64,000 bases of DNA. Origin: Halichondria panicea (taxonomy: Eukaryota; Porifera; Demospongiae; Suberitida; Halichondriidae). Both the position numbers and the translations under genes were made by a program. Below the pieces are notes generated by a model that made no database searches, was not told the origin of the DNA, and was given only the letters and a program-made list of their open reading frames with translations. This document shows positions 2,072 through 63,600 of the stretch, one piece after another. Position 1 is the stretch's first letter. The number at the start of each line of letters is the position of its first letter. The DNA is taken from NCBI RefSeq assembly GCF_963675165.1, contig NC_087378.1, positions 5,265,205-5,329,204 of the forward strand, in the 5' to 3' direction.

Positions 2072-5000
2072 ATGGATGCATCTGTAAGAAAAGAGATAAG
2101 TTCTCTTTTAGAGGAGCTCACCCATTCTGGATCTACTACATTAGATCCTAATCTCATTAAGAGGCTCAAATCAATATGCAGGTATGTGCTATGATCAAGC
2201 CTGTCTCAAAATGGCACTTTACTTTATTTATCAGGTCTTCCGATATGTACGTGAGGGCAGTCTATGAGATCACAATGGGCCACTTGTCGAAGGATCATGC
2301 CGAGGTTCGTCTCTCTTCATTCCAAGTCATCAAAGAGCTCTTCTCACGTTCTCACATATTTCGAGAACTCGTCATCTCCGAATTTCAAAAGTTTTCCGTC
2401 CTTGTAGCGGGCACTGATGCACACTCCCCTCTCCCCCCACCCGAACAGGCAGCTGCCCAGCTGAAAAAGAAGAGCCTGTTGGCTATTAGGGAATGGAATG
2501 ACAAGTATGGAACTGGGTACCCGAAACTGAAACTGGGATACAACTACCTCAAGACCAATAAAAAGGTATTCCTCATAGCAAAAAGTGTATAAAAGTATCT
2601 CAATTTCCTGGGAGCTTTATGTACCTACTTGTTTTGAATAAACACCTGACTTGTTTGCTGGTCTGCGATCCACTAGCTGATGATCCCTCTCCCAAGATGT
2701 TCAAATTGCTGTATTCTTTCTTTCTCTGCCCTTTTAGGTAAACTTTGATGAGCTGGTTGCCCAGACCGAGGTTGCTAGGAGGAGGCAGGAGGAGAGGGCC
2801 GGGAGACAGAGAGCTGTGCTCCAGCAGAAGATACAGGAAGTCAAGCAAGAGATGAAAGGTGCGTTAAGGGCCCTGTGTGTGTGTGATAGTAACTGTGTGG
2901 CAGTGAGTAGGCATTTACTCAAAGGATTAGTCAGTTGCTGTGTATAGAAGGCCGATAGTGGGAGTACACATGTCATCTTTTAGGTTGTGCCCATATAATG
3001 CAGCACTGGTCTTCATCAACTGTACTGCACATGCATAAATTTACATGAAACTTCTACCTTTGCAGACCTGACGAGAGACATTGAGGAATGCATTACTGAA
3101 ATTACTTCTTGCTTCAATTTACTTATGCCGAGGTTCGATTTGCCTGACATTTACTCTACCCCAAACATTCCAGAAGGTGGCAGGTACTCAAGTGACGAAC
3201 CCTCACAAGCTATGACAGTAATGAGGGTGCCTCAACTCACCAGTGAGATCAGCGTTGAGCAGAAGAAGTCAGAAAAATGTGTCACTAGGAATCTAAGCTC
3301 TTCCTCGTTTTGTTCGCTCAGTGAGCACAGCGACTATGAGGAGGACACTCTGGATTCATTGTTGGATATCAAAGGTTTGCCTGATCAACAGCTGACTGAG
3401 GAGTCTAAGGAAAAAAGTGCCTCTTCCGTTGAGAACACTCAGCATATAGATAGTGAGCCCGACGATAGCGATAGTGAATTTATAAGGAGACACTATGGGA
3501 TATCAACTGGAGAGACGTCTGGGGGCATGAAGAATTGCAAGAGTGGGGGTAAGGGGAAAGCACAACTCGAGACCACCCCAAATGAGCTGTTTGCTGAAGT
3601 GCCAGATAGTTGCACTAATGAACAGTTTGAATCTGGATCTGGATCTGATTCAGACTCAGACTCTGAATTGGAATGGGAAGATGTGGATCCAGCGTTTGAT
3701 TTTGACCTTCAAGCTCATGGCATTGCCACATATGGATTTTCTATTCCGATACAGCTGGATGCAATACCAGTTCTGAGAGAAGATAAAAACAATTCCAGCA
3801 TACTGACTGCTTTAAGAGAGAGCAGGCATCTCTTGGCTGACAAATACCTGCTGACTATAAACAAATGGATGGAGGTACATGTAATAGTTGTACCATGGCT
3901 AGCTATTTATGTAGGATGTATTGGATATGTGCCCAAGGGCATGCAGGTTTATGTAATATAATAATATACCGTGGCTGTAGCTAGTAGAGGTGCATTGATT
4001 TACCCTAGGGTACATAAGATTTTGTGACCTTCATGTACACCTTGGAAGAGTACATGGCATTGTACCTATAATATGCTCGGAGGGCAACAACTTTGGGTAC
4101 TATAATTACCGAAATTTTCGAGGCACTTATATTTTGTGGAATGGCCTCTAAAAGCATTTTGTTGCACAATGTTCGCGGAAAGACTGCTTACCGGAAGCCA
4201 TGCCTTTAAATCTTTGCACGTTATATAGCAGATAATTCTAATTAAAGAATAATTTTTGTGAACTTAATTTTCGTGTAGGATTGCTAACCCACGAAATCCG
4301 CGAAAATTTCGCGCTATACGGTATACGCTGATGCATAATCATGTACATTTCAATTGATTACCGTATAGCGGGTAATTTTCGTGGGGTAAAATATTCGTTA
4401 TTTTCGTGGGCAGGCTGACCTCCACGAAATTTTATCGTAGGCGTGGCTTATCTAAACGTAGGAATGCCGTGCAGTCACGAGACTAAACGAAAATTTTACT
4501 CACGAAAACTACCGTTTCTCGAGTTGAACGAATTTTTTACCCCACGAAACTTACCCGCTATACGGTAGTCATGCAGTTAATCAATTTCTAACTAGCTATA
4601 TAGATACCACCAAGAAGAGAAGAGTGTCAATCACACTACTACACAAAAACTGTGGACAAAGTAACGTGACATCCTGTCAATTGCACGTGAGCAACTCTTA
4701 ATTTATGACGTTTACAACAAGCTTGTGCATCTATTACGCAAACGCACCAAATTTGCAATTGAAGAGGATCAACTCGACTATTTTTTGTGAAAAGATTGTT
4801 TCCTGGAGTGAGCAGCTCTGAACGATTAGCTAGAATCAGATGTCATTGTTCAATCACCACACCCCTAAAAACTTCACGGTTAACATTTACTAGGAGATTA
4901 CTACAATGCTTCGTCACATTCGAGTCATGTATTACTTTGTGCACAGTTTTTGTGTAGAACTATCGGTAGTTGACATTCTTCTCTTCTTATAATAATGAAA

Positions 5001-13145: not shown

Positions 13146-13212
13146 TCACTCTTGATTGTCAGCATTCAAACCAACACCTTTCTCTGATGAATTCTCAAGT
13201 GTACAACAGGCG
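12793..13212. repeat. Degenerate tandem duplication of the TAF1B 3' end (period about 220 bp)
   Basis: Two units, about 12793-12992 and 13013-13212, share in order GTGAGTTATAAAA-TAGCAATGC, ATGCAAACACAAAG, GATAATGGCCAAAA, TGTCACTCTTGATT and GATGAATTCTCAAGTGTA. The right-hand unit holds the real TAF1B stop codon (13146-13148) and its last codons. The left-hand unit has lost the frame, so it is a non-coding relic. Confidence 0.8.
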
Positions 13213-16200
13213 TCAGACTTTGCAAGTGTTGAAAAAGTTTCCTCCTGAAAAAGGTGATTGGTGCATGAAATACTCAGTTCATCTTCTATTTGGAGTGCAC
13301 TCAACTTAGGCGACGGAGGGTGTGCAATTCCGGCATTGCACTGAAATAGGCTACTAGTAGACTCTTGACTATGTGGCTTAGTTACATCCATGAACAGAGT
13401 TTGATATTGGGAATCAGTTAGCTCAGGACACTCTGGTTCAATTTGAGACAAGCTTGGTGACTGTGAATCCACAATTACATTACAAAATGGTACAGGCAAA
13501 AACCGAGTCTTGGCTTGTTGTGCAGCTATCGCATGGAACTGGGTTTCTGTTTCTGTTTCTGAAGTGATATCCTCTCGATGCTTTATCCCTGTTTGTGGGA
13601 CAGATTCTTTACACTGAATCACTGTCTGCGGTACGGCCTCTACTTGTGGAACAGGTATCTCTGGACACCGGTTCACCGTTTGGGATAACTGATACTCAAA
13701 CATACTAAGTAACGCTTCTTGAAGTTGGGGAAATCTGTGTTTTAAACCAGGAGAAGGGGGGACTACAATTGGAGGTTGGGGTTCATGTAGTTGAGACAGG
13801 TGAGCTCCAGAACCAATTTCCTGGCAATCTGATTCCTGCATGCCAGAAGCTTGAAATTCGTGGATATTGAAGATTTGTGACGGGGACTCAATGGTAATAC
13901 AGTTTTTTGTTTCGGAAAAAGCCACATTAGAATCTTGAATCTTGATATGCAACTGAGACTCAGAATATTGTGGTGCACTTTCTGTGTCAAAAGTAGAACC
14001 AGAATGTTGTGTTGCACCTTCTGTGTCAAAACTAGAACCTAAAGTCTCGATCTTGGAGCTAACAGAAGGTTGTGGTGAACCTTTAGTTTCTAAAAGAGGC
14101 GCGTGGATATCGACAGAATCAGAATCTTGCGATTGAGCATCAGAGCTAAAATCAAAAAGGTCGTTAATTTTAAATTCCGAGAGGCTCATGTTCATTATTT
14201 CTTGAAACTGAGAGTCATGACAGCTGAAATTCAGCTCATGGCTTGAAGTCTGAGACTCGGAGATACTCGAATACTGAATATCATCAGTTTGGGTCTTTTT
14301 TTCAAACTTCCAGCGTCCTAACGGTATACGAACCTCCGGATCATCTGTTTCAGGCACAAACATCCAGCGCCTAAATGGTATACGACTGCTGGGTTTCTTG
14401 TTTTGACTAACATTCTGCACTCTCTGAGGCAACGGGAACAGTGCCTCCTCAGTCTGTGTCTGTGAATGTGTCTGTTTTTCACTGTATTGATATTTATTAC
14501 CGGTTTTAAACTCCAGCAATATGCTGTACGCCTGCTTTAACGTGTCAGTTGCAGACACGATCTGCGATTCAATACAACACACTTGTTCGTAGAGTTCTGT
14601 TGCCGAAACATCAAGAATATTAGAACAAGTCTGTAACAAGAATTTAAAAGAGTGAGAGAATTCAATTTCATGAAATCTGTTACTCTTAGGGCCTCTCTGT
14701 AGACAGTCAAAAAGTTTCCAGGAAACATGTTCTGACTTCACAAGGTCGGAAACGTACACTCTCCTTATTGGTCTGAATGTCACTTCACACTGGCGCTTGT
14801 CGTTGCAGCCAGGTGGTAACTCCTCCCATTTATTTGTTTTCAACCGAGCTCGCTTTATAATATCGCTCAATTCACTGCAGAACTCAGGATCCAAGGGTTG
14901 AACTGTGCAGATGAAATTATAGTACACTGTCACAAGCACCTAAACCACTCATGTGAATATAAGGAGAACTCTACTAATTACACCTATAATGATGAATGTC
15001 CGGTGATAAATTATACACAAGCAGTAGTAGCCGGGTACTTACATTGAAGAGCAATTATACTACTGTAGTGAACATTATTATCATTAACTATACATTATGT
15101 ATGTGTACGTAGTAATAAATGCACATAAGAAGGAGAATACTGTAATGGAAATGCTTCGCTACAGTGAAAACTTACGGGTATCAGGATTTTTGTCAGTAGG
15201 ATTAAAACGAGCACTCGTCAGAAGCTCATCATGGCAATACTCGATGAAATTGCTGGGATTCGTGACTAAGGCAAGCTCACTGTTAAAAGGAATTAATGAA
15301 ACCAATAAATATTATGAATCGATGCTTTAAATGTTTACGGCCCGCTTCCAAATCACACCTACATGTATACCATTTGTGAACACAGACATTTACTGAAAAT
15401 AACTAGAGCACTGAAGTGATAAACCCTCGGCGATTTTACGTCTCATAATACGTGTCACAACTCCAGATTGTTGCACAAATTAAGTGAAAGTTAGTATAAG
15501 AATGTACATGAACATGGAAACCTAGCAGCAACTACCCGGAGGAAAATAAGATTTGAAAGCTTTGACAAGGTTTTGAAAGCGGGCAGTGGTGCATGCACCA
15601 AGTAGAGCCAGCAAGCCTAAAATGTTGTCTGGACAGCTATCCATGCTGTAAACGCAGTGCTATGCATGGCATCCAGATGAGTAGACTCAGATATCACACA
15701 AAACCAACCGCAGCCACGCCTCGGGTAACAATTGCTATAAACCAGCGTGTAGATGAACGTACAATGTCATACAGTATATACCTTTTAAACCTGTAGGCAC
15801 TTGGGTTGTACCATAGCTACCTTGAATGCAAATTATAGACATGTGTATCACCAACCCAGAGTATACAGCCATCTATTAGCCATGGAATAATTACTTCCCC
15901 ATACCTCTTATTCTCAGGAATGCCATTTGAGAGAGATACAAGTCTCTTTTTGCAGTAGAGCGCTACCCAATCTTCCCACAGGTATAAGTAGTCACCATCA
16001 TCAGGTGGGTTCTCTTCCTGACAATCTTGACGAACCCACTCAACCATCTCACTACATAGCAGAAGAATTCTCATCAAAACAAAACTGCACTGTGTTTGAG
16101 GAGCAGTGAGGGATTGAACTTGAAACAAAGCCTCTAAAATAGCAGCTCATAATTATGACCGCTTCGGAAATAACAGTACATGTAGATATGGGAAGGTATC

Positions 16201-19200
16201 AGCCTGTACTGTGAATAAAGCTGTACAAGGAAGGCCTGAAAATACACTAACGCAAAATAATTATACACATGCATGTATGATGTATTTACTCAGTGAATTT
16301 CATGAGCACAAGGTCATAGGTGTGCAATTCAAACTCACTCACAATTCATAAATATCATCTAAGCGGTAGGCCATCCTCAGCAGGTACACAACGATTGACA
16401 TGCACCGAATTTCAAAGGTGCGATGAGTGTGAATGAAAGCAGCATCAAACTCAGGGCTTTCGATACAACTCAAAGCCCTGCCCACCATTTTGTTGAAGTA
16501 CTCAGGAAGATGCAGTTTCTTGGTGAAGATCTGGCACATGGTTGTTGGGGTGATGGTGGGTATTGGTGGGAGAGGAAGGTACCAACACAGATTACGCAAA
16601 AAAATGTACAGTTGATCCGCAGACATGTCTCCCTGTGCATGCAAACAGCATAATAAACAATAATTATTAGTCAACTATAAATTGATGACAGATAGCTAAG
16701 CATACTTACAAATAAAAAAGTTTGATAAAAGCAATTTAAATCCATGTACACAATATAATATACAAGCCACTTCTTAGTCCAACATGAGTTGCTTACTGCC
16801 TTAGAAGAAAGTGAGGTTGCGTCCTTGCTTTGGAAGTAGCTGCTAGGGAGCAGGCTCAATACATTGTGATATGGGAATTGATTAAGCTGGATCCATCTGA
16901 GAAAAAATATACAACTTTTTGTGTGAATAATATTATAGTCTACGACAGTTTTTTGTACGAATGCAGCAGGATCAGCAATATTCCAGTAGTCTACAGCTAG
17001 CATAATTATTTTCAAAGCTTTAAGGACAATTTTCTGTGTTTCCTAGCTACTACATAATTGTGTATACATAAAAAATTAGCAATGGTATGCAAAAACACCT
17101 TGCAAAATCGCTTAGAAGAACATTCTGTTGTGTGTAGAGAAGACCCAGGTAGCAGATAGCCACAGTGTGCTTCAGAGATAGAACCCTCATGTGTGATCCA
17201 CCTTGCTTCTTAAGGGTCTTGTAGTACTCATCAGCCTCCTCTTTAGAGTTGTCTTTACTAACCAACTTTTCCACAGATGCAGTATTCTCCTCATCAGAAG
17301 CGCTGCTCTCTTCAAATAGGTGTACATCATCAGAGAATCCACTCAGAGGACTATTAGGTTCTTCTTTCACGTTTGTCGACAACATTTTTCCAGCCTTTTC
17401 TAAAAAATCTCCATCATAGCCAACCTTTGCCTCTGCAGTCTTTACAGTGCTTGTTGTCTCAGTAGGGTGTAATAACTTTTCAAGATCGTGTGAGAGCTCA
17501 GCATCAAAGTCAATCTTTCTCCTAGCACCCTTGTTCTTTGAACTAAATTCATGCTTATTGGACTGTATCTTAGCTTTAATACCAACACCAGTGTGGCCTT
17601 TTTGTGCATTTCTCGACATTTCAGTAACACTCTTTCTTTTTATTTTCATAGGACTTGCTTTTGTTTTTTTAGAAATTCTTCTACGCTTGGATGGCATTGA
17701 CTCGCACTCACAAACAAAGTTCTCATCATCAAGATCACGACTTGTACCGGCCTTTAATTTCCCGAACCTTACACATGCTTTACAAGTACATTCTTTTTTA
17801 GTAACATGAGGTGTGAGGGTAGGTAGGGAATTTTTACAAGAGGGGCATAGAGACTGCTTTCTCTTGGGTGCTCTGGCCTTAGTGATACGATTCTTCACTT
17901 GCTTTGCTGTTTCATTCGAACGCACTTTTGGATTATTCTTGTATTTCAATTGCTTTTCTGAAAGATCTTGATGCATACATTTTATGGGAAGTTCTATTGA
18001 GTTCTTGAAAGCATATCCACTGTATTTAAGGAACCTGAACCAGACGAGCTTAACAGCTTCCTATGAATAAATTTAGAGAGAAAAACCACATGCAAAACTA
18101 GAGCACTAAAGTGCAAACCCTCGGCTGGTAACATGACAATAAAAAAACCAGAGGAATGATATAATTATAATGCAGTGCATGTAGCATATGTAAACAACTC
18201 AAGAGCAATAAAACTAAACTAACAACGTGCACAACAACAACTTTCATCTTAATGTCTAATTACACGTTGACAAAAGATTAACAGGAAATGAATTCAGGAC
18301 AGATCGTATATTGGGTTTAGAATGTGCCACTTAGTCTGGCCACGCCCTCCCCAATTCCTATCGGGTCAAGTTAACTGTTCGTGACGACACCCTAAGAGAT
18401 CTTGGGGTGTGAAACCGCACGCATGCAGTTGTGTAAACTCAGCATCACGTGCATATACTAAGTGCTCTTATAATGACAAAATGTCGTCCTGGCAGTGGTG
18501 TTTGAGGAAAAAAAAAAGAAAGGTCTTAAGGACAAACCATTAATCTGATTCTAGCCATGTGTCCAGACTCCCAATCATCTAGTGTTCATGTAAACTTCTC
18601 AGTGCTAGTGGCAGCAGTTGCAGACTGGGATGGGAGAATACTCACAAATATCAGTCGAGGCTCTTTTCTTCAGCAGTAGCATGGCTATTTTAGGTATAGA
18701 TCGGCTACAGCTAGTATTATCAGTAGAGCTATCTGTATCATGACTGGCACTGTGCACTCGAATCATTTTTCTAGGAGCAGCTTACTGTGTTCACACGTGG
18801 CAGAAAATTTTACCGAGCATGCACATCTGAGGTTACTAATTGCAATTATTGTCCGGAAATTGCCCTGTGGCCGGACGTTAATAAGAGCACTGATATATAG
18901 ATGGGCTCGCCTATATATCTCAAGACTGAGCTCAAAGAACTACAGTATGAGACACTGTGGAGCATGTCATTTTTATATTATGGAGCTATTATATAGTGCC
19001 TTAGAATTCTTGGACAGCCGAAGGAAGTCCTAAAAACCTGAGTGACAGGGTTCGTTCTAGACACATGAAAATATTAACTTGAAGTCTTTATTTGTGTACT
19101 GAATTATGCCTCGGTGTGCATGCGCAAGCGAGGTGTACGGTAGTGTGTTTGTGTGTCTGTGTGTGTAGACTGCTACATCTGCCAGGGTGTCATACAGAAT

Positions 19201-21231: not shown

Positions 21232-21689
21232 AGATCTATAGAGCAAGTACTGAGCGAGAGCGAAGAGAGACCAAATAATGAACACACAGAAGAATTTAAC
21301 TACACATGGCATGTACATGTTGTAATTAAAAGATGAAAACAATCCACGTGGGTGAGTGGAACTCTATAGGAAGCACACCACTCTGATTGATGCACACCAA
21401 ATCTGTCTCGCAATCACCAATCACGTGCAAAATCTTCACAACAATCATATTTAATACTGATATTAAACTTCAATCACCCCTCTGAATTGGACCCAGCCAC
21501 CAGGAAACTATTCAGGTGAGCTACAGAGCAACTAAGTGAATGTACCTGGCCATGATAATTATGATGATAGGCCTAGGTCTTGCCAGCATAAGATCACACA
21601 TGCCATGTACATGTGCTTTTACACTTTTTTGTTTATACATGTATAGGCATCACAATGGTAGCATGATCCTTGTGTGAAGCCCCCTGAAC
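21232..21689. promoter_or_regulatory. Divergent promoter region TAF1B / Kelch gene
   Basis: 458 bp between opposite start codons. Two CACGTG-type blocks are present (ATCCACGTGGGTGAG near 21342, ATCACGTGCAAAATC near 21420). An intron could end within the stretch upstream of 21690. Promoter role inferred from geometry. Confidence 0.5.
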
Positions 21690-24600
21690 ATGGATACATC
21701 CAAAGATGTAATTATTTCCACCAAGCCCTCTGGTGTTGTTCTCTCCAATACCATGCCGAACTTTGTAGATGACTCTCTCCCAAAGGAAATGCTCGAGAGC
21801 ATGTATACACTTCGACGAAATGGAGAATTGTGTGATGTGGAATTGGCTGTTGATCAAAACTGCTTTAGGGCGCACAGAGTTGTTCTTGCGGCTAGTAGCA
21901 TGTATTTTAGGGCCATGTTTTGTCGGCAGATGGCTGAGAGTGGTCAGAGAAGAGTGGTGATCCAAGGAGTGGATGGGGAAGCACTCGAATCCCTCATCAA
22001 GTTTGCTTATACCTGCACACTAGAGATCAATGAAGAGAATGCACAAAGCTTGTTGGCAGCTTCAAATTTTCTGCAAATGTTGCGAGCGAGTGAAGCATGT
22101 TGCAAATTCCTTCAGGAGCGACTTGATTCCTCCAATTGTTTAGATGTTGCAGATTTTGCCGAATTCCAATCTTGTGGGGAACTGTTAGAGGCTGCTCTAA
22201 AATTTGCCAGGCAAAATTTCTCAGAAGTATCGAGGCATGAACGCTTCTTGCAGATTTCCTACTCTCGAATGAAACATTTCATGAGCAGGAATGACTTGCA
22301 CCTACCTGATGGGGAAGAGGTGGTATTTCAGGGCCTTGTTCGCTGGTCGAGGAGCAACCTCTCTGAACAACAGGTTCATTTTGCTGAGCTTCTGGACCTT
22401 GTCAAGCTTCCCTTGTTAGGTAAATTTGGATGGATTTCCTGGTGACGTACATCTAGTTTTAAATTATCTATTCCATAGGTCAAGAGTTTTTTGCGGTAGA
22501 AGTTGCAGCAAACTCTCTAGTGAGCTCAAGTGATGCTTGCATGCGGCTAATTCGCCAGGCAGCCAGAGCCCTGTACAACGAGACGTACCCTAGTGGGATG
22601 TCCCACCTCTGTCGACTCCCTACTCAGATCCCTATGAAATGGTGGCCCAGAGACACCCTCAGGGCTGGAGAGGTCATCCATATTCTTGGTAAGCTGAGTG
22701 GTTGAGTTTCAACATGTACTTGGGCCAGGTGCGGTTGTATCTAGAATCGTCTCTCTCTTCCTGTTCGGACTAGTATATTATCTTTGTATATATGTACAGT
22801 ACATGCACAATGGTTATACATGTACATTATGCCAGACAGCATAAAATACACACACGTTTTGTATTTAACTTCACAATCCAGACTACATGTATCATGCTAA
22901 TTGCTAACGGATGGTTTTGAAGTAGATCTTGCCTCTCAGGCAATTGTTTGCTATAATTATAGATCTTGGCACAAAAATAGTGTACACTTGCAGAAATGTT
23001 AATGACATTCTCTGTCTCAAATGTCAGGAATGTAGTATACAATAACAGTCAATGGTGTAAATATTATAATATTATGATGCCCATTGTATAATAGAAGAGC
23101 TGAGACACAAGGTGGTCTATCATAATTATGTGAATACTTTGCACCCCTTGAAACTGAATGTGCTGAAACTACACGTAGCCTCATGCACCCTCGTGCCGTG
23201 CAGGAGGTGTATCTGAGCACGAGACTCTGGGAAATGTGGAGTGCTATGATCCGGAGACGGATCGCTGGGTGGTGGATGTTATTCCTCAGATGAGATATCG
23301 GAGGAGTGGTGTGGGCGTGGCAGTGCTGCAAGGCCTCTTGTTTGCCATTGGTGGGTACTTGGAGGGAAAAACAAGTACTGATGCCGTTGAGTGTTACAAC
23401 CCCCGTATCAAAAGGTACATCTAATATGTGATAGTTGTACCATGGATTTGTACCCTGGGGCAGTTCTGTCCAGTATGCATGTGTGCCCCTCGGGGAGTAC
23501 ATACAACTGCACGTGGGTTCAATCCAAGCACACTAAAGATAGCCATGATACAGGTGGCTTGTATTATGATATAAACGACATTTACAACTGAGTAGGGTCA
23601 ACACTGTTTGATCTATGCCGTGTACGCATGTGCTTTATAGACAGTCCATAGGAAGTAGGATCCCTATAAATTAATAATTAAGGCAATGAACCATTATAGG
23701 GCGTGGGTGGTGCTTGCACCGCGGATGCTGATACCTCGTTGGATGTTGTGCTAAACCTACATATCATAAAGCTACTCGCTACTGCTAATACACACATGAT
23801 TGATATCATGATGAACTTTTTGCATTTACTGCATGCTGGCAGAATCACAGGGAACTTAAAGAGTGGGAAATGATTGACCATGTTAAAAAGGATGCCCAAA
23901 GTCTAAAATTAAAGGCTGCTGCATCAGTAAAGCCTTGCATGCAGCTCTTTTCTCACTTTTGCAGCTACCAATAGCTAGCGTTCTAGTGCAGAGCTAACTA
24001 CTAATTGGAGTAGCAGCTAAGAGTGACACGTATGTTGATGTGTACATAATCCAGTATATGGTAGGTGATCATAAGGGAGCTTGGGTATACATGTAGGCTA
24101 CGTTTATGTTTGTAATACCATGGATCTTTTCATTGGTATTGTTTTAGGTAGCCCAGATGATAGGTTAGACACACAAGACTTCAGCATTGGTGTGTTACAG
24201 TTATGAACTCACCCATTTAGGTGGATGCCTGTAGCCAATATGCTGACAGCTCGCATGAACCTCGGAGTAGGGGCCATTCGAGACATGCGGGACGCAGTGA
24301 CGGGTACTTCATTCAACGCCATCTATGCCATTGGAGGCTACAGTGGAAAAGCTATCCTTGGCTCGGCTGAGAAGTACGAAATTCAGACTGACATGTGGAC
24401 TGAAATTGCCCCAATGAAGACTCCCAGGAGGAATGTTGGTATGTAATTGCTCTACATAATTTGTATAATTATGTCATTTGTAACTCTTATCTTGGTGTGT
24501 AGCTGCAGGTATACGGTAAAGCTGACCGTGTGTGTGTGTGTGTGTGTGTATGTGTGTGTGTGTGTGTCTATTCTAGCTGTAACTGCTCAGCAGTCGCAAC

Positions 24601-34524: not shown

Positions 34525-37500
34525 ATGTCTCGAAACATGTCCAGGCATAATGGTAATTACATACTTCACACGTACACGTACACGTACATGTACATGCAGA
34601 CCTGTGTGTATGGAAGTATGTATATCTTCGATGGCCTATTAATATCATCTTAGAAGCAACTTGATGTACAGTATGCTTTTACTATGTAAAAATGAGCAAT
34701 TATGACCAATTTGTGAGTAAGAGCATCATTTTGTGATGATTACCTACTCTAAGCTCACTAGTCTGACAACTCCCATTTAATAAGGCAGGCATTTCACGGG
34801 TTTCCCCTTGTAGAATAAGATGTGTGATCGAATTGTATACCAGCTGATCTCGTCTCTACATACATGTTAGCAAGCTTGTTGAAGATTCTGTATTCATTTA
34901 GCAAAATTTTACGGGTGTTCATATGTACATGTATCTGTTGTGAGAGTTGTGTCACATTGTGTCAATCTTACTGTGTCTCTATCTAGCTGATCACCCTTTA
35001 GTTGCTATACAAACAATGAAGTGACTGATGGCATGTTGTTTAGTGTACAAACACTTTGTACGCGCACACACACACACTCAGGTGTCAGCTGTGATGCTTG
35101 CGGGAAGGGAGGGTTCTCTGGAAATCGTTACAAATGCCTTGTGTGCTACGACTTTGACCTCTGTGGTGACTGCTATAGTTCTGGAGAGACAGGAACCGGC
35201 AAACACAGCAGCAGCCACCCAATGCAGTGTATACTCACTAAAGTCGATGCTGGTAAGTAAGTCATGTAGGTACACTGTATGAATATGTGTTTGAATTGAG
35301 CTGATAGTGTTCTAGCTGTTCTGGTGGATAGGATGTGGTGGCATGCTATGATGGTTTACAAAGAGTGCGCACGACTAGTTAAGGGGGCATGCAATCATGA
35401 ACCTGCCTGGATTTGTATGTGTACAGCAATTACGTTGCACATGTGCATGACCGAATGTTTGTTGTAAGGCGGCAGTAGCAATACCTCTCACATGCTAACA
35501 TGGTTTATCTTTGATTCCCCTATACACCTTCAGATTTGTTTTTTGGTGGTGACTCCCAAAGCCCAGAGCATGCCCAGTCATTCACTTGCCCCTTATGTGG
35601 TCAACTGGGGTTCTCCGAGCCAGAGCTGAGAGAACACGTAACCAAACAACACGCTGACGGGGTGCCTCAAGAGGTCATCTGCCCGGTTTGTGCCACTCAT
35701 CCCTCAGGGGATCCTAATCATCTCACTGATGACCTACCCACGCATCTTACTGTCGAACACCGAGCACTCAGGGAAATGGAGATATCCTCTCTGATATAAC
35801 TACATGTTCGTGCTACACACACCCTTGTTCTACATGTATTGTACTTGCTTATATTAAAGCGGCTTGGTGACTGCACGTATCTGTCTACATGTATGTTTTC
35901 ACTGTACATGTAAAGAATGTAACTAGTGCTTAGTCTTAGGCTCAACAAATCAGACCTGAAATAGAATGTTGCACTCCTTGACCCTCTCTCACCATGACCC
36001 CACTGTTCAGAGCAGGGTCCGCAGACTAATAGGGCGTCGAAGAGCAGGGCTTGATCGTTACGTTGGCATGTTTCGGGAGAGTGGACAGGCTCAGGACAAT
36101 GTTGACCCCATCACTGAGCTTCTATCACAGCTCTCAAGTAAGTAGCAGTAGCAATGTGGTCCATTGCCTAGTATTATAGTATTATATAATATGGAAGTAG
36201 CAAGCCAACGAAAGGGTGGTGTCATTGGGGAAAGGCAAGTGTGACTTACAACTATATGAAGTGTAGAGGTACACCCCAAGATATTGACCATACTGACCAT
36301 GTTGCCTATTGACACAACCACCCTTTGTCGCTGCATATGTATTAATAAACTGTTGCCAGCCATGGCAGAGTAATTGTACCTTTCAACCCTCCAGTATTTT
36401 TATGTTAGTTGTCTTTTAACCTTTTGTGACGGCTCCAATACTTCTTTGCTGACTTTGCTGTGATTCTAGTCCCAGTGAAACCTGTTTGTATCGGGAAGCT
36501 AAACACATCATTACACTATGTCTTACTATACCCTACGCCCGCCCGACAGCTTAAGGTTAGGATATAGTGTTTCGCCCACGCAAGAAAGTGGGCGTTCCCG
36601 CTCAGCATCTGTACAGCAATTTAGGTAAAGCTAGCTACAAAACTTCTGCGTCAGTTTTCTACCTTCTTAGCTGATGATCATGTCCTATTTAAGAATGATC
36701 TAATTAAACAAGGTATGGGGCAGGGCCAGATGTAAACATTTCATAGAGAATCGAGACTCTGCAGCTGCAGAGCGCTCACTTTACTGTTCATTTTTGGATC
36801 ATTTTTGCGTATTGATAGTACAAAAGAGCAGATATGACAGAACAAGTATCACAATAAAGAAATATCTAAACATCTGGCTCTAAGGTAAGTATAGATCTTG
36901 TCATAGAGCTCTTGTATGTCACTCCATGGCCTCTGTAGCTCTAGAAAACTGACGCCAAAATAAGGAGTGTCCACCACAGATCTCTGATGGCTATTCTACT
37001 CTTCATGTACTAAAGACAAACAGTTTTAGCTTGAATATGAATATTATCATTGCCTGTATTGATACAAACTCTTCATTACTTTCAATGGCCATGAAATAAA
37101 TAAAAACATATGCCTACCAGGCTGTGGCAGCCTAGTGCTCCAATACTAACGTAGTTTCCACTCCTCTGGCTATGACAAATATTATAGCACCACACCTCGG
37201 CAGAGAGTTTAGCACTTCAGTTAAATGTACCTAAGTTCAGTATAATAAATTATTATGTTAATTAGACATGTACATGTACCGTAAATGCATGTACGTTATG
37301 GTGGAAATTTTATCCGAAAATTCTAACTGCGAAATTATTATGCGCAATAGGTTCTACAGTTGTACGTCACTATTCTGAGCTGTATATACGAATATTTAAA
37401 ATTAATTGAGCAGTTTATGAATACAAAAATTTGCACCAACGAAAATTACCCACTGTTATAGTATTTCCACCATAAAACTTATGTTATTCACACGCACACG

Positions 37501-40417
37501 CACACGCACACACACAAACCTTCCTCCAGGTAGTGGCAGTCATGGTGGGCAACGGCTTGCTCCCACTGATGTTCCTCCTCACATACAACAGTTGCTTGAC
37601 CAGCAGGAAAGACAAGCTCTCGAAAGGCGATCTCCCCTAAGGAGACCAATGTATCGCAAGATAACCTCAGGGGCAGGTGGACTGCTGACATCAGATACTC
37701 ACAGTTTAGCTGGTTAGCCTCATAAGAATGCAGTTACATGAAGGTACATGTAGCTGCTTCCATACACTAATACAGTAACAGTGAGCAATAACATGTAAAA
37801 GATGGTGGTAGCTTTTGCATTGGTCATAATTATGCCTCGGTGCGCATGCGCAAGCGAGGTATACGGTAGTGTGTGTGTGTGTGTGTGAGTTTGCATGCAG
37901 AAAATTAATGTTTGTCATGATGTATAAAAGCAAGAGAACTCTTGATAAAAGCAGCTTTATGTTATGTATAGCTTTGGCATCTCCACCGAGGCATCAGCAC
38001 CCGTGGTGCTTTCATTAAGAGTTCATTGTTGTGTATATAAGTAAGTGATAATGACCAACTGCATTTGTCAACCAGTGACACTAAGTATGTATCAACGAGG
38101 TAATACATCCTTTGATGGTCCAATGGCACATAACTTCAACCACTAATTCCACAAAACTTTCCCTCATCGCCTTCGCCATTCCAAATGTATGTGTGTTAAT
38201 GGTTTCTTGGGTAGCTTCCTTTGATGGTTTAATGGCACATATATAACTTCAACCACCAATTCCACAAAACTTTCCCTCATCGCTTCGCCTTGTTAACCCT
38301 CGGTTGCAGTAGTCTGTCAGTCAGTCTGTGTGTCCGTGTGTGTGTCTGTCGCTCACCTGGTGATTTAGGCATCACAATTTGTACGTAGGGAAAATTGTAG
38401 CATTAAAACTAAGGCTTAAAATTTGGCAGATTTTACAAAGAAGTCTTTGTTTCGCAGAAAAGGCGAGCTAAACCTAATTGCGTACTACTAAACGCGGCTA
38501 TTATTTGAAACATAAACCAATGTAATTAGGTGCGGCTATTATTCTAAACATAAGCCAATAATTACTGATTGTTTGTGGAAAGGGTCAATACAATAGAAAG
38601 CTAGAATTGTGTCTGGTTTGTCTCTGTTAGCCGACTCTGGGATCCTACTCCAGGAGCCATACTTCTCTGTATAAGACTCCAGGCTTCTTTGCTGTGATCC
38701 TAGTCTACAGTGCATATAAAACCCTGTTCTCAAATGTTTCAGCATGCCTCCAGTCTCGTTTAGCTCCTGAGTTGCTGTGCTAGACAGTTTAAATAAGTCA
38801 TACATGATATTCATCACTACATGCACTGCATTATTATTATAACTCTTCTGATTTCTTTATAATCGTGTCACGTCACCAGCCGAGGGTTTGCACTTTAGTG
38901 CTCTAGTTATATCTGTGTTGATAGTTTGCAAGTGGACACTGGTGTACTTATCCCCAGTTATGCATTATGTTGCCCGGGCAACAGCCATTCAATCCTTACT
39001 TTTGTTTTGTTACGTACTTGTATCAATTAACCACCCTTCCCTATCCTTCCAGGTGGTAATGGACTGTTTCAGGCGTCCCTCTCTAAAGACCCATTTGAGG
39101 TATCCAGGAGCATAACTATCGACTTGGACAAGGACAAGAAGGGATCCAGTCACTCTCTGGAGCCTGACAGCAATCACCTTTTAGCCAGGTACACAGTGCT
39201 TATTGTTTTTATCAGGAGTGCATGAACTCCTGTTTTCATGTGGATTCGTATAGCGGGTATATTTCGAGGCTATAAACTTTAGCGATTTTCACTGACCAAA
39301 CATGTACCGGGAACATTTATACCCACGAATTTAAGTACCGTATAGCGGGTAATTTTCGTGGGGAAAAATATTTGTGGTTTTGTGGTTGGATGTCTGACCA
39401 CGAATATTTTACCCACGAATGAAGCGACCTTGCCTACCTTTACCTACAATCCAAGTAGCAACCACGAAAATATTACCCACGAAATGTATCAATATTGCTG
39501 AACCACGAATATTTTGCCCCCCCCCCGAAAATTACCCGCTATACGGTATTAGTATCATAATTATGCTGCTAGTCCGTAAAAGTTAAATCCTTTTGTTTAT
39601 ACCCTCGAAATATACCTGCTTGTACGGTATGCCATACTCTACCGATTACGCCCACCCCCACTTTGAGTGAAAGTTCCTATATAGGCTAATTTGCCTCAAG
39701 AATACGCCCACTTGTATACTTTTCCTTTATACCTACATGTAGCTACTCTCCACTATTGTTGTATATTGATGTATTTCAAAGCTGGCAGGTTTCAGACGCA
39801 GACAGAAAGACTTGTAGTTCTGATGAGTGGACGTAATTTCGAGGCAAAACTACTGTTTTTGAAATTAAGCCCATCCCACCTGTAGATGTTTTGTAGCATG
39901 CAATTAGGGTGGGCGTAATCTTGGTATGCTTTATCAAAGGCCGCACTCAAATAGTAACCTCAGTGAACTTTGGGGCTATGTCTTTGCACGTGGTAGCTAT
40001 ATTGGTATATAGCTAGCTAGATAACAGCTTGTTGCTTTTAAAAGACTTTCTCATGGCAGAGTTCGTTGGTTTTGATGACAAACTAAACGCTATTGATTTA
40101 GCTGGGGCTAATAAACGCCTCTCTTGAATAGTGACCTCTCTCGAATTGTAGCCTCCTCTGCCAGCAAAATGAAACATTTAGTTGCCCGGCCTCTGATCAA
40201 GCATATACGGTGTGTATATTAATACGTACTTGTGTGATACCATTATTTTATTTGTTGTGTTTCACTCTATTCACACAGTTCTGCCCAGCCACAGCTAACA
40301 GAAGAGGAGCAAGTAGAACTGCACAAACGTCGTGTAGATAAGAGCCGTTTTGTGCAAGAACTCTTACTCTCTACTCTAGCATTTTCTGATAGCAGTAGCG
40401 AAGGGGAAGATACGTAG
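34525..40417 (+). CDS. KCMF1: KCMF1-type E3 ubiquitin ligase (ZZ zinc finger + Di19 zinc fingers)
   Basis: Potassium-channel modulatory factor, an E3 ligase acting with UBR4. Seven exons join in phase to 349 aa: 34525-34552, 35082-35252, 35534-35781, 35993-36137, 37530-37712, 39053-39188, 40279-40417. The start MSRNMSRHNGVSCDAC matches the family N-terminus. The ZZ finger is CDACGKGGFSGNRYKCLVCY with DLCGDCYSSG and HPMQCILTKVD. Two Di19-type C2H2 fingers follow: FTCPLCGQLGFSEPELREHV and VICPVCATHPSGDPNHLTDD. After these are VRRLIGRRRAG and DPITELLSQLS, then the conserved end VDKSRFVQELLLSTL and an acidic tail. Exon 3 runs into a stop unless the intron is read as AT-AC; that join gives HRALREME-HDPTVQSRVRR, which is collinear with vertebrate KCMF1. 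CA microsatellites lie next to the acceptors of exons 2 and 5. Confidence 0.95.
35782..35992 (+). other. Probable U12-type (minor spliceosome) AT-AC intron in KCMF1
   Basis: The intron begins ATATCCTCT, close to the U12 donor consensus ATATCCTTT, and ends CTCAC. TCCTTGAC (35975-35982), matching the U12 branch-site consensus TCCTTRAC, places the branch adenosine at 35981, 11 nt before the last base. There is no GT or suitable GC donor between the conserved VEHR codons and the stop codon, and the AT-AC join is in phase and collinear with KCMF1. Length 211 nt. Confidence 0.85.
37833..37993 (+). repeat. Short family C element, 161 bp
   Basis: Bounded by TGCCTCGGTGCGCATGCG and CTCCACCGAGGCA with a GT microsatellite after the left end. 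It is much shorter than the 700-bp copies, so it is an internally deleted form. KCMF1 intron 5. Confidence 0.8.
38108..38285. repeat. Two-copy direct repeat, spacing about 105 bp
   Basis: TCCTTTGATGG then AATGGCACATA, ACTTCAACCAC and AATTCCACAAAACTTTCCC TCATCGC occur twice (38108-38170 and 38217-38285) with small differences. KCMF1 intron 5. Confidence 0.75.
38293..38891. repeat. Element with AACCCTCGG inverted ends
   Basis: TTAACCCTCGGTTGCAGTAG on the left and CAGCCGAGGGTTTGCAC on the right are imperfect inverted repeats. The right-end sequence, including CACTAAAGTGCAAACCC in inverse, recurs near 18105 and, weaker, near 15410. Limits approximate. Confidence 0.5.
39337..39548. repeat. Family A element
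   Basis: ACCGTATAGCGGGTAATTTT and AAATTACCCGCTATACGGTA ends, TA on both flanks, interior nearly the same as 5134-5341. KCMF1 intron 6. Confidence 0.85.
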
Positions 40418-40711: not shown

Positions 40712-47263
<6,552 letters not shown>

Positions 47264-55700: not shown

Positions 55701-58700
55701 GTCTTTCAAGGATCTCTTACCCAAGGTGGCTGGTCACTATGTAACTACATGCTCACTGTTCAGTCAGTTTGAGAGTTAAGATAGTGTTGTTCTTGTTCGA
55801 ACAATTGAATAGCCTTAAATCGAATTAAAAGCAGTTTTGAGAGATGTTAGAAGTCGTGTGATACCAACACTTGCTCTTAATACAATCTTCACAGGCATGT
55901 ACTTATTTTATTAACACTGGACTCACCTATAGGCAGGTCCATGACTAGTTTATTTTTGATTCCAGGTTCTGCCTTCCACTGCCCCCAGAGTCAGGCTGGA
56001 TGGTGCCAATGGTGTGGGAGCTGACAAAGCGAGGAAGTTGGTACAGGTTATTCAAGCTACTGCCGGGAACATAATTGATATTGAGGTGTTTAATGATGGC
56101 ACTTCCGGCACTCTAAATGAAAACGTATGCTACAACCGTGGGTTTACAATGTTGACATACATGTGTTATTGCTATATCAGTATGTATGTCCACCATTGTC
56201 TAATCTGCAACCACCCAGGCTTTGCTAGGTAATTAATTTTGTTGTAGCCAGCTAGTACTTTTCCCAGATTATGAGTTGTTCTCCTGCTACATGCATAAGA
56301 ACAGTGTGGAGCTGACTATGTGAAGACTCAGCAGAAGGCACCGATGGGGATGGAGGTTAACCAGGGAGAGAGGTGTGTCTCATTTGATGGAGATGCAGAC
56401 AGAATTGTTTTCTTTTATATGGATTCAGGTGAATGTGCCAAATAGGAGCGTGTATGTAGTTCTAACTTTGGTTTAAAGGCTTACAACTCACTGAAGTCAT
56501 TGCCACTATTCTTGTCTAATTCTCGGCAGTTCAAAAATTCCATTTACTTGATGGTGACAAGATAGCAACGTTGGTAAGTGGATCCCCAGTGCTCAACAAG
56601 TTATAATTATATTTACCTGTTTCAGGCAGCTGTTTTTATCTATGAACGCTTGAGGATGTTGAAGACAGATCTTTCACTTGGTGAGCCCTTTAATGCGCTT
56701 AATTTCTAATACACATAATTATAGCTCTGTGTATTGGTTTTAGCATGAGGTTCATGGGTGAAATTGTGTTCAACAGTAGATCTATTGCAGCGTTTTTTGT
56801 GTGTTCAATTCTTTTCCCACTGAAGGCTGTACAAACCATTATTGTATTCAGGTGTTGTGCAGACGGCTTATGCCAATGGAAGTGCTACAAACTATCTCAA
56901 CCAAAGTGTAAGCACTTTTACAAAGACCATGCATAGATAGAGGGATTGGAAATGGAAGTACCATCCGTGTATCTCCGTGGTTTTAATCGAGGCTTAACGT
57001 GGAAGGCTAATATGAATAATTCATAAGAATTGTTTGGCTTAACGTGGAAGGCTACCATGAATAATTCATAAGAATTGTTTTGCTGTCTGTAAAAAATCCA
57101 AGAGCAGTTCTAAATTAAAACATAAAGTTTTATCTCATAATTGAGGCCATTTGGGACACAGCATACCTTAGTTCCTTAGCTATAACATAGGTACTATAGA
57201 AACACAAGCATGAAGAGGCGCTCTAGTTACTTCGAAAATCGAGATTATATTTTCTTCGTTTCCAAATAATGATACCTACCACCAGAAAGCATGTGATTCA
57301 GTAATGGGGGTAGTTCTGAGATGTATGCAATACGTTTCCCGGGCTTTCGCGCAAGTTATGAAGAGATACAAGGATGGTCCCAGAGCCACTACGTAGACTT
57401 GTAAACATCGCGTGAATCGCTTCCGTTTCCAATCCCTCTTCTCTTCTATCTATGGTTGCATGTAGTACCCAACAGTCATACATGTACTTCTCACTTACTA
57501 AATTTAATAAGTCTCCTGTGTTTGAGAGATTCTCCACCTCAGAACATCCCTGTGGTGTGTGCTCTAACTGGAGTGAAGCATCTCCACCACAAAGCAGTGG
57601 AATATGACATAGGAGTGTACTTTGAGGCGAACGGTCATGGCACGGTTGTATTCAGTGACCAAGCTTTGGAGACATTCACAAAAGCTGCTGAGGATGGCCG
57701 ATTGAGTGAGGAAGAGAAGGAGGCAGGGAGGCAATTGCTGGCTCTCTCTAGGCTTATCAACCAGACAGTGGGAGACTCATTATCAGACATGCTGCTGGTA
57801 GAGATCATATTGATGCATAAAGGGGTACGTTTGCTCATAAGTATGTATAAGTGCTGTGTGTAGGGTACACATTCTGTTATTATGCTACTATACACTACAA
57901 TTATACCAGTTGTGTGGACTGAGTATATATAAAGGGCGTAGGCAACCTCAAAACTCACCAGAATTCACATAAGACCACCTAATTAAACAATAACTTTCCA
58001 GCCGGCGATATTACATACTAACATGACCTTTTTTTAGCAAAATTTCCTGGTGATTTTCCACCCTCTATTCTCAAAATCCTGTAGTGTCGACACCCTGATA
58101 TTATATTCTGTGCACTGAATCACAGTGTCTCAACTGATCAAGATCAAATGTTGCCAATACAATTATGCAAATGCCATTTATTAATTTTTGTACATTGAGA
58201 GTTGGAACATTTGGTGCTCCATTGACAGATGTTTTTTGCCTGTCCAGTGGGGCTGCTCGGAATGGAATGTCATGTACACAGACCTACCTAACAGGCAACT
58301 CAAGGTGCAGGTCAAAGATCGTATGGTAGTCAAGACAACTGACTTTGACAGGAAGTGCACTTCACCTGAGGGCCTTCAAGAGCAAATTGATGCACTGGTT
58401 TTCCAGGAAACGGGAGGAAGATCATTTGTCAGGTGAAGAAACACTCTAGTGAAATAACACAATAATTATTAGTGTGCAATTCGATTTTTTGCTAATAAGG
58501 CCTTTTGCTTCTGTATGGTTGCTTACAGACCGTCTGGGACAGAAGATGTGGTGAGAGTGTATGCTGAAGCAGAAAAAAGGGTAAATAATGTGTTTCAGTT
58601 AGAGACTAATAATTATTATTTTGCTGCAAGTTTTAAGTTGTTAACGGGAGACTTGCTAATTGCTGAATTTGTCATCTTGAAGTACTAATTTTAGTCAGGT

Positions 58701-60304: not shown

Positions 60305-60665
60305 GCAATCATGTTAGAGACTGATAATTATGCTTTAATGTCTCATTTTTGCAAGTTTTTAACAGGAGACATGCGTTAATCTGTTAATTGTTGAATTTGC
60401 CATCTTCAGTAATAATTATGCGTTAGTCTGTTAATTGGTGAATTTGCCAAATTCAGAGATTAACAGACTAGCGCAAGTTTTTTCATTACAGTGCTAGAGG
60501 AATTATGCTACTTCAATGTCTCATTTTTGAGTTATTAACGGGAGACTTGCGTTAATCTGTTGATTGCTGAATTTGCCATCTTCAGTAATAGTGCTATAGG
60601 TACGTATATATATGGTATAGCAGAGCAGTTTTGGTCCATACAGCTAGTATTTTATCCGGCTGAGT
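60305..60665. repeat. Gap PGM3 / surface glycoprotein gene, made of repeats
   Basis: Two direct units (about 60331-60420, 60495-60598) share AATGTCTCATTTTTG, TTAACGGGAGACTTGC (or near), GTTAATCTGTT and GAATTTGCCATCTTCAGTAA. A third, weaker unit is at 58620-58685 inside PGM3. Between them 60419-60475 is a hairpin (TGCGTTAGTCTGTTAAT / ATTAACAGACTAGCGCA). The promoter of the following gene must lie here too. Confidence 0.7.
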
Positions 60666-63600
60666 ATGTTCTTTCTAGTGTTGCTATTATTGGCTAATGC
60701 CATTCCAAGTCACTACTGTTCTACTGTTGAAAGCATATCTTGCTCATCAGAAGTAACTCCAAGTGGTAGTTTTTCCTGTGTCGGGGTGCCAATCCAATGT
60801 ACTCTAACATTGAATGCTACGATTTGCAACGATGATGGAAGTGTCACTCATCTTACCAATGGCGATTTAACTGTTCACATCACAGAAATCTCGTTGAGTA
60901 CGCCACCATTTTTGATTAATCAGACTGGCACTACTGTAGTGGTCACAGCAGACTACTTACCGACACAAGACACCAGCATGCTTGATGTCACTATCACCTC
61001 GACTAATCTGAACTGCGGCTTTGATGTAGTGTCCGGCCCCTTATTGGTTGCACCTTCAGCCAGCTGCAACTATCCTGTCTCTTTCGGTTTCATCAGTAGC
61101 TCACCAAGCTCACAAAACCACACTATCAATGGAGGAGAAATAATAACAGTCAATTTGGGATTAGCTGTAACGGACTCATTGGCAGTCGAAAACGTAACTT
61201 TTGCGTACAATCTAATACATCCTGCATTGAGATTTGTTTCCGAAAACACGACAACTTCTAACCTTGAAACTGCTGTCACCTCTCCAATAACTTCTGGTGA
61301 TGATTATCATAGTCTTCTCACAAGCTCTTTTACACCACTTGTATTGCTTTCGTCCTTGGTCCAAGGTGATAATGTAACGGTGAACCTGCACTTCCAAGTG
61401 CAGCCGTATGTGCTACCACAGTCAACCTTGTACGTATCTCTCCATGTATTCTATCATCACAGAACATTTTCAAGCTATAGTCTGAAACAGAACATCAATC
61501 AACTGAGAAATTACACTGTCTCTGAAGTGACAGTCGGAAATGTCACAATCGATCTGCCTTATTACGACCCTCAGAATTATGAACCAGACACGTTTCCGTC
61601 ACAGGAAGGAGATATTTTCATTGTAAAAATCCCAATTTTAGTACCTTGTGTTTCAACTGATCTCACGCTAAACATTTTGTTACCAGAGTTTTGGTCGGAT
61701 TTCTTCACCAGATATAATGTTACTGTAACTAATGTGACTTTAGTGGCTCCTTCCAACTTAATGTCAATTCCTCATCTTTGCGACTACACTGACCTAAATG
61801 CAAGCAGATGTGATTTCGATGAGCTCTCAGGAACTGGACCAGTAACACTGATGACTTATTTTCTTGAGCAGTGGGCAGTGGGGGATGACAATATTACCGT
61901 AACAACTGGTCCACTCATGTACAATATCACCACTGGCTCAATTTGTGCTAGTACAAGTCCACCAAGTACCTGCAACTGTATTGATGAGGAAATTCAGATA
62001 TTTCTCACAGTGCTCGTTCTAACTGACATGATTTGTGAGAACCAGACTATATCAGACAATATCACGACCACTCTAAACCACACCGCAGACATGACAACAT
62101 GGCTATCACCGACACCTACCCACACAAAGCCGACAATAATTCAATATCAGGACGTGTTCTCGTTTCTACATGCTGTCAATGCGAGTACCCCAGCCATTAG
62201 TCTTCCCATAAGCTCTCATAGAGGAGATGCAGGTGACCCTTTCACAGTAACCTTTGGTGTTGGACATAATGGCGAGTATTCCAAGTTCACGGCCTACGAT
62301 TTGAACTATACATTCAGTATTGATATGCGGCTTGATCCAGAGGAGAAGATTTTGATATGCTTCTTTGATGTGCGCACTGATCCAATTATGTGTGAAGAAG
62401 TTCCATTCGTTGATTATACCATTGTGCGAGAAGGATTCCATGAAATGTCAGTTGTAGTTGTACTGGTTATATAGATCTCGTGGATTGCAATGTATTTTAT
62501 TTTAGACAGTTTTGTGTATGCGATTGGTATAATTATGTGTTTTGAATCTTAGCCCTGTAATGAGAATTGTCTCTATCCATTGCAGTTTTACTCTCCACGT
62601 CCATCGTGTTGAGCTCACACTGAATGTGACAGTCATTCAAGAGGTTGCTCCGGGTATTAGCTTCTGTAATCCAGGAGACACTATCTTTGAAGCACTACCA
62701 GACAATTATACGCTGAACATTTCCCCTCTAGTTTGTACCAACTCATCTTGCGGTAGTGTCAAAATTGATCCAGTGATCCTCTATCCCTGGGTAGTGCATT
62801 GGAGTAATGTACCATGTACAGCTACAGAGGACATAGTTAACCAAGCAATTAATCAACACCATGTTACAATTGAGGAACAGTTTAATACAACTATTGAAGC
62901 TTGTATGCCAGAGTGCTTCACAGGTGTCAACCTCTATGTGTCTATACCAGCTCACAATGGTGTGCCTAAATTGACTGTGGATGATGCGTATGTGACGTTT
63001 ATTGGTTCTGAACTTTACCATACCACACTCTTTAAAGGGGATGGTAAGTGCATACGCTCTTGGTACAACTTATAATGATATCTATTTTATCTACGCAGCT
63101 CTGGCTACTGCTGATAATATCACTGTAACTTCTGATGGATCCATGGTGAGATTTTTCTTCGGTCCTGAAGTTTTAGTGCCTAAGGACAATATTTTGATTG
63201 CGGATGAGCAATGTTTTGAAATTGGGCTTCTCTGGACGGTCGCAAACACCCCAGTCTTCCATGGCGACACTTTTCACTACTCTGCATACGTTGAGACAGA
63301 TTTTGGGATTAGGACAAGCATACAGAGAAATACTCTGAAGGTACGTATTCCAATACACTGTAATACCAAGGGCGTATAAAAGAAGAGAGGGCATGCAACT
63401 CCACTATCAGTACACGTAGCTAGCAGAGTTCAAACGTGGGCGGAGGAATGTGTGCATTTGCATGAAGTGCTAAAAAAGAAATTTCGCACATTCAACCGCC
63501 CACGTTTGAACTCAGGAGTTGCATACCCTCTTTTATTTTAAACGCCCTTGGTAACACCCATGACATATAGTATTTTGCTCCACACCTTTCTATGTACGTG

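Follow-up and report, generated by a model that had tools for sequence, protein, structure and literature searches.

A predicted U12-type AT-AC intron in the KCMF1 gene of Halichondria panicea

Introduction

A 64,000-nucleotide stretch of the genome of Halichondria panicea (contig NC_087378.1, positions 5,265,205 to 5,329,204; referred to here as the window, whose own numbering is used throughout) raises the question of how the third exon of KCMF1, the gene of an E3 ubiquitin ligase, is joined to the fourth. An earlier note on this DNA had claimed that exon 3 possesses no usable GT or GC donor before a stop codon, and that it is followed by an AT-AC intron of the minor class. In U12-type introns, the donor and the branch site are recognised together by U11/U12, and the branch A then attacks the donor. 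The donor consensus ATATCCTTT and the branch-site consensus TTCCTTRAC are common to U12-type AT-AC introns generally, and the donor consensus of U2-type introns is MAG|GTRAGT.

The KCMF1 gene model and its third intron

The gene model built from the window places KCMF1 on the + strand in seven exons, extending from the start codon at 34537, upstream of which an additional in-frame ATG is found at 34525, to the end of the stop codon at 40417. The coding part of exon 1 (34537-34552) contributes MSRHN plus one base and matches human MSRHEG, while exon 2 (35082-35252) encodes a ZZ zinc finger (PF00569, E 1e-11) and exon 3 (35534-35781), which ends in ...REME, a zf-Di19 zinc-binding region (PF05605, E 6.4e-14). 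Exon 4 (35993-36137; HDPTVQSRVRR...DPITELLSQLS) was delimited by the gene model and the alignment with the human protein, exons 5 (37530-37712) and 6 (39053-39188) by the gene model, and exon 7 (40279-40417, including the stop codon) is aligned with the human C-terminal region RADRSLFVQELLLSTL. Joined in this way, the seven exons connect without an internal stop or a break in the frame and yield a product of 345 residues, to which human KCMF1 (9d9z_E) aligns over query residues 1-344 with an E value of 6.4e-69. Both the ZZ and the zf-Di19 domain of the spliced protein score above their Pfam cut-offs, whereas a Di19_C match stays under its own (25 vs 29 bits), and the two domains together with the full-length match identify the gene as KCMF1. 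Identity with the human protein is strong through EHRA, directly 5' of the exon 3/4 junction, becomes poor for a few residues at the junction itself (HDPTVQS), and is high again at DPITELLSQLS in exon 4, where 10 of the 13 final columns are identical.

Five of the six KCMF1 introns have GT-AG ends, and intron 3 alone has AT-AC ends. This intron (35782-35992, + strand; number 3 of 6) is 211 nt long and lies in phase 0. Its donor, ATATCCTCT at 35782-35790, agrees with the U12 consensus at 8 of 9 bases and carries a C at position +5. The branch site, CTCCTTGAC at 35974-35982, likewise agrees at 8 of 9 bases and includes the motif TCCTTGAC (35975-35982) with the branch A at 35981. The AC acceptor (35991-35992) follows 11 nt past this A when counted to the last intron base. 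Excision of 35782-35992 connects the exons in phase and restores an open frame that is homologous to human KCMF1. The AT-AC intron proposed in the earlier note was thus recovered with its donor, its near-consensus branch site and its acceptor at the positions given there, and the restoration of frame and collinearity that the note had predicted is borne out by the 345-residue protein. These motifs, their spacing, the frame and the collinearity with human KCMF1 support the assignment of intron 3 to the U12-type AT-AC class, and we consider it very probable that this intron is of that class and is cut out by the minor spliceosome. During such removal, which the sequence leads us to infer, U11/U12 would bind donor ATATCCTCT and branch site CTCCTTGAC jointly, the branch A at 35981 would attack the donor, and 35781 would be joined to 35993. 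Retention of the intron would end translation at the TAA at 35797-35799, just past the zinc-finger region. A working minor spliceosome in the host would be a fair inference from the presence of such an intron; the Rfam scan of the 64-kb window at gathering thresholds gave no matches.

Frame and homology do not by themselves settle the position of the acceptor, because the junction residues are weakly aligned and the choice between 35992, 35998 and 36010 consequently rests mainly on the spacing from the branch site. Among acceptors at 35830-36059, donor 35782 can be joined in frame to AC at 35974, 35992 and 35998 and to AG at 36010. The first of these lies upstream of the branch A. A U12-type intron that keeps donor 35782 and ends at AC 35998 or AG 36010, or a mixture of such products, would preserve the frame with either acceptor. 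However, these two sites are found 17 and 29 nt past the branch A, outside the optimal branch-to-acceptor distance of 11-13 nt given for U12-type introns in PMC6717393, while 35992 lies at 11 nt, and use of the more distant acceptors thus appears unlikely.

Relation to the KCMF1 intron of fly and human

The earlier note had also hinted that a minor-class intron in KCMF1 might not have been described before, a suggestion that fails because the gene is named in Table 2 of PMC2831892 and also in PMC2952598 and PMC7644725. In Table 2 of PMC2831892 (2010), CG11984/KCMF1 is entered with a U12-type AT-AC intron, number 3 of 6, in fly and human. The sources of that study include U12DB, and for cases examined by hand intron positions were also compared on protein alignments; the intron ordinals in the table appear to follow the numbering of the fly gene. 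CG11984, with KCMF1 as its human ortholog, is likewise listed among the fly genes with U12-type introns in PMC2952598, and Kcmf1-a is counted with the classical U12-type introns of fly in PMC7644725.

The Halichondria panicea intron agrees with that of human and Drosophila melanogaster KCMF1/CG11984 (Kcmf1), as tabulated in PMC2831892, in host gene, AT-AC subtype, ordinal (3/6) and U12-type class. By comparison, the U12-type AT-AC introns of PHB2, STX6 and SLC9A7 in the same table share the subtype with it but differ in host gene and position. With subtype and ordinal the same as in fly and human, intron 3 is most likely the ortholog of their U12-type AT-AC intron. The likeness of the 211-nt intron to its fly and human counterparts is one of subtype and ordinal. 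It might sit at another codon, in which case two different AT-AC minor introns would have been received or kept by KCMF1 in separate animal lineages; we regard this as quite improbable. Given its previous record in human and fly, the U12-type AT-AC intron of KCMF1 is already known and represents an expected conserved feature rather than a discovery, and our analysis adds one more species with this intron. The result is consistent with an old and stable AT-AC intron in KCMF1 and offers a clean example of the slow loss of AT-AC minor introns, intron 3/6 having apparently been kept in a further species, while the overall picture of minor introns is left unchanged. In practical terms, gene predictors restricted to GT-AG would misjoin or truncate KCMF1 at this point.

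For sponges and other early animals, no passage on the KCMF1 intron was found in the partly covered literature, which included PMC10639083 and PMC2846911 without supplementary tables. The main text of the pan-eukaryotic survey PMC10639083 contains no mention of sponge, Porifera, Amphimedon or KCMF1, and KCMF1 is also unnamed in the main text of PMC6717393. Literature retrieved for KCMF1 and exon 3 held nothing on gene structure, as judged by title or the start of the abstract.

Possible splicing by the major spliceosome and the role of chance

A rival account is that the major spliceosome removes intron 3, either as a U2-type AT-AC intron or by using a GT-AG or GC-AG pair concealed close by. 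Reading on from this exon meets the TAA stop at 35797-35799, and the five GT or GC dinucleotides within 35690-35799 match the U2 donor consensus at only 3, 3, 5, 3 and 3 of 9 bases, compared with 7, 8, 8, 6 and 6 of 9 in the five GT-AG donors of KCMF1 itself. The absence of a usable GT or GC donor before the stop, as claimed at the outset, is in agreement with these counts. Pairing donors at 35690-35800 with acceptors at 35830-36059 gives, on paper, 61 stop-free joins in frame; 11 of them have ends that would suit a hidden pair (4 GT-AG and 7 GC-AG), the others being AT-AC (19) or AT-AG (31). However, none of the GT and GC sites near the end of exon 3 exceeds 5 of 9 consensus bases, where the GT-AG donors of the gene have 6-8, and their use would remove EHRA or zinc-finger sequence. 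Splicing through these sites was rejected on both grounds. Among the donors of the 61 joins, at least 6 of 9 bases of the U12 donor consensus are found only at 35782 (8 of 9), and the search yielded no other credible way out of exon 3.

U2-type AT-AC introns do exist, and those of sodium-channel genes, which resemble KCMF1 intron 3 in their AT-AC ends, have a G at donor position +5 (PMC2831892). In contrast, intron 3 of KCMF1 has a C at this position, as U12 donors do, together with a U12-type branch site; the C argues against the U2-type AT-AC class, which was rejected on this ground. A further point in favor of the major spliceosome comes from fly strains whose minor spliceosome had been disrupted. 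The Kcmf1-a intron is still partly spliced in these strains, and the authors suggested that in this disrupted state the major spliceosome may recognise both of its sites (PMC7644725). Because of this partial splicing, exclusive use of the minor spliceosome for KCMF1 intron 3 is not assured. Taken as an account of the removal of the intron, major-spliceosome splicing nevertheless appears highly improbable.

To what extent could the motifs assigned to a U12-type intron arise by chance? When the window was simulated with a first-order Markov model, 5,820,000 positions contained 740 AT donors matching at least 8 of 9 bases and 367 branch sites with an AC at 10-14 nt. For a donor and a branch site to occur together near the end of exon 3 (the slot plus 500 nt downstream), the chance was approximately 1e-4, or approximately 4e-5 when the frame is included, values that serve as a guide and not as strict probabilities because the thresholds of the simulation were chosen after the site was known. 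The donor pattern by itself is common in the window, occurring with at most one mismatch at 9 sites on the + strand and 7 on the − strand. The window scan also returned other U12-like donor/branch pairs no more than 2 kb apart, on the + strand at 35782/37592, 34671/35974 and 44366/45397 and on the − strand at 45455/45291 and 21790/20220; these remaining pairs are unlinked to gene models and were taken as chance matches. Finally, an AT-AC appearance produced by an assembly or sequencing artefact or by a pseudogene, to which the single genomic copy might lend itself, was rejected and has a close to negligible probability, as all seven exons connect without a frame break or internal stop, the near-consensus donor and branch site with proper spacing are improbable by chance, and the AT-AC U12 class equals that recorded for KCMF1 in fly and human in Table 2 of PMC2831892.

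Other searches and other features of the window

Searches for relatives of KCMF1 in viral_contigs and genome_contigs returned 10, 54, 59 and 23 pattern matches, of which none was confirmed by tblastn, a result that was expected since these are collections of viruses and prokaryotes. Likewise, a scan of the KCMF1 region for bacterial promoters and terminators found none and is uninformative for an animal gene.

Within KCMF1, short motifs (for example ACCACGAA and CCGCTATACGGTA) recur at 39230-39545 in intron 6 and have, by eye, the look of a portion of a repetitive element. Elsewhere in the window, two long open frames, one of 597 aa on the − strand (13149-14939) and one of 608 aa on the + strand (60648-62471), gave no Pfam matches at E 0.001. 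An exon at 2161-2589 (+) matches the UVSSA N-terminal domain (PF20867, E 6.6e-39), an open reading frame at 17053-18060 (−) matches the Rrn7/TAF1B N-terminal cyclin domain (PF20644, E 1.6e-07), and BTB and BACK domains of the Kelch-like-protein type are encoded at 21678-22442 (+). Downstream of KCMF1, open frames at 41046-44979 (+) resemble, by eye, exons of a receptor tyrosine kinase, and 42993-43349 (+), the sole part of this region that was scanned, matches a kinase domain (PF07714, E 1e-07). Domain III of phosphoacetylglucosamine mutase AMG1 (PF21404, E 4.3e-37) is found at 57405-57860 (+).
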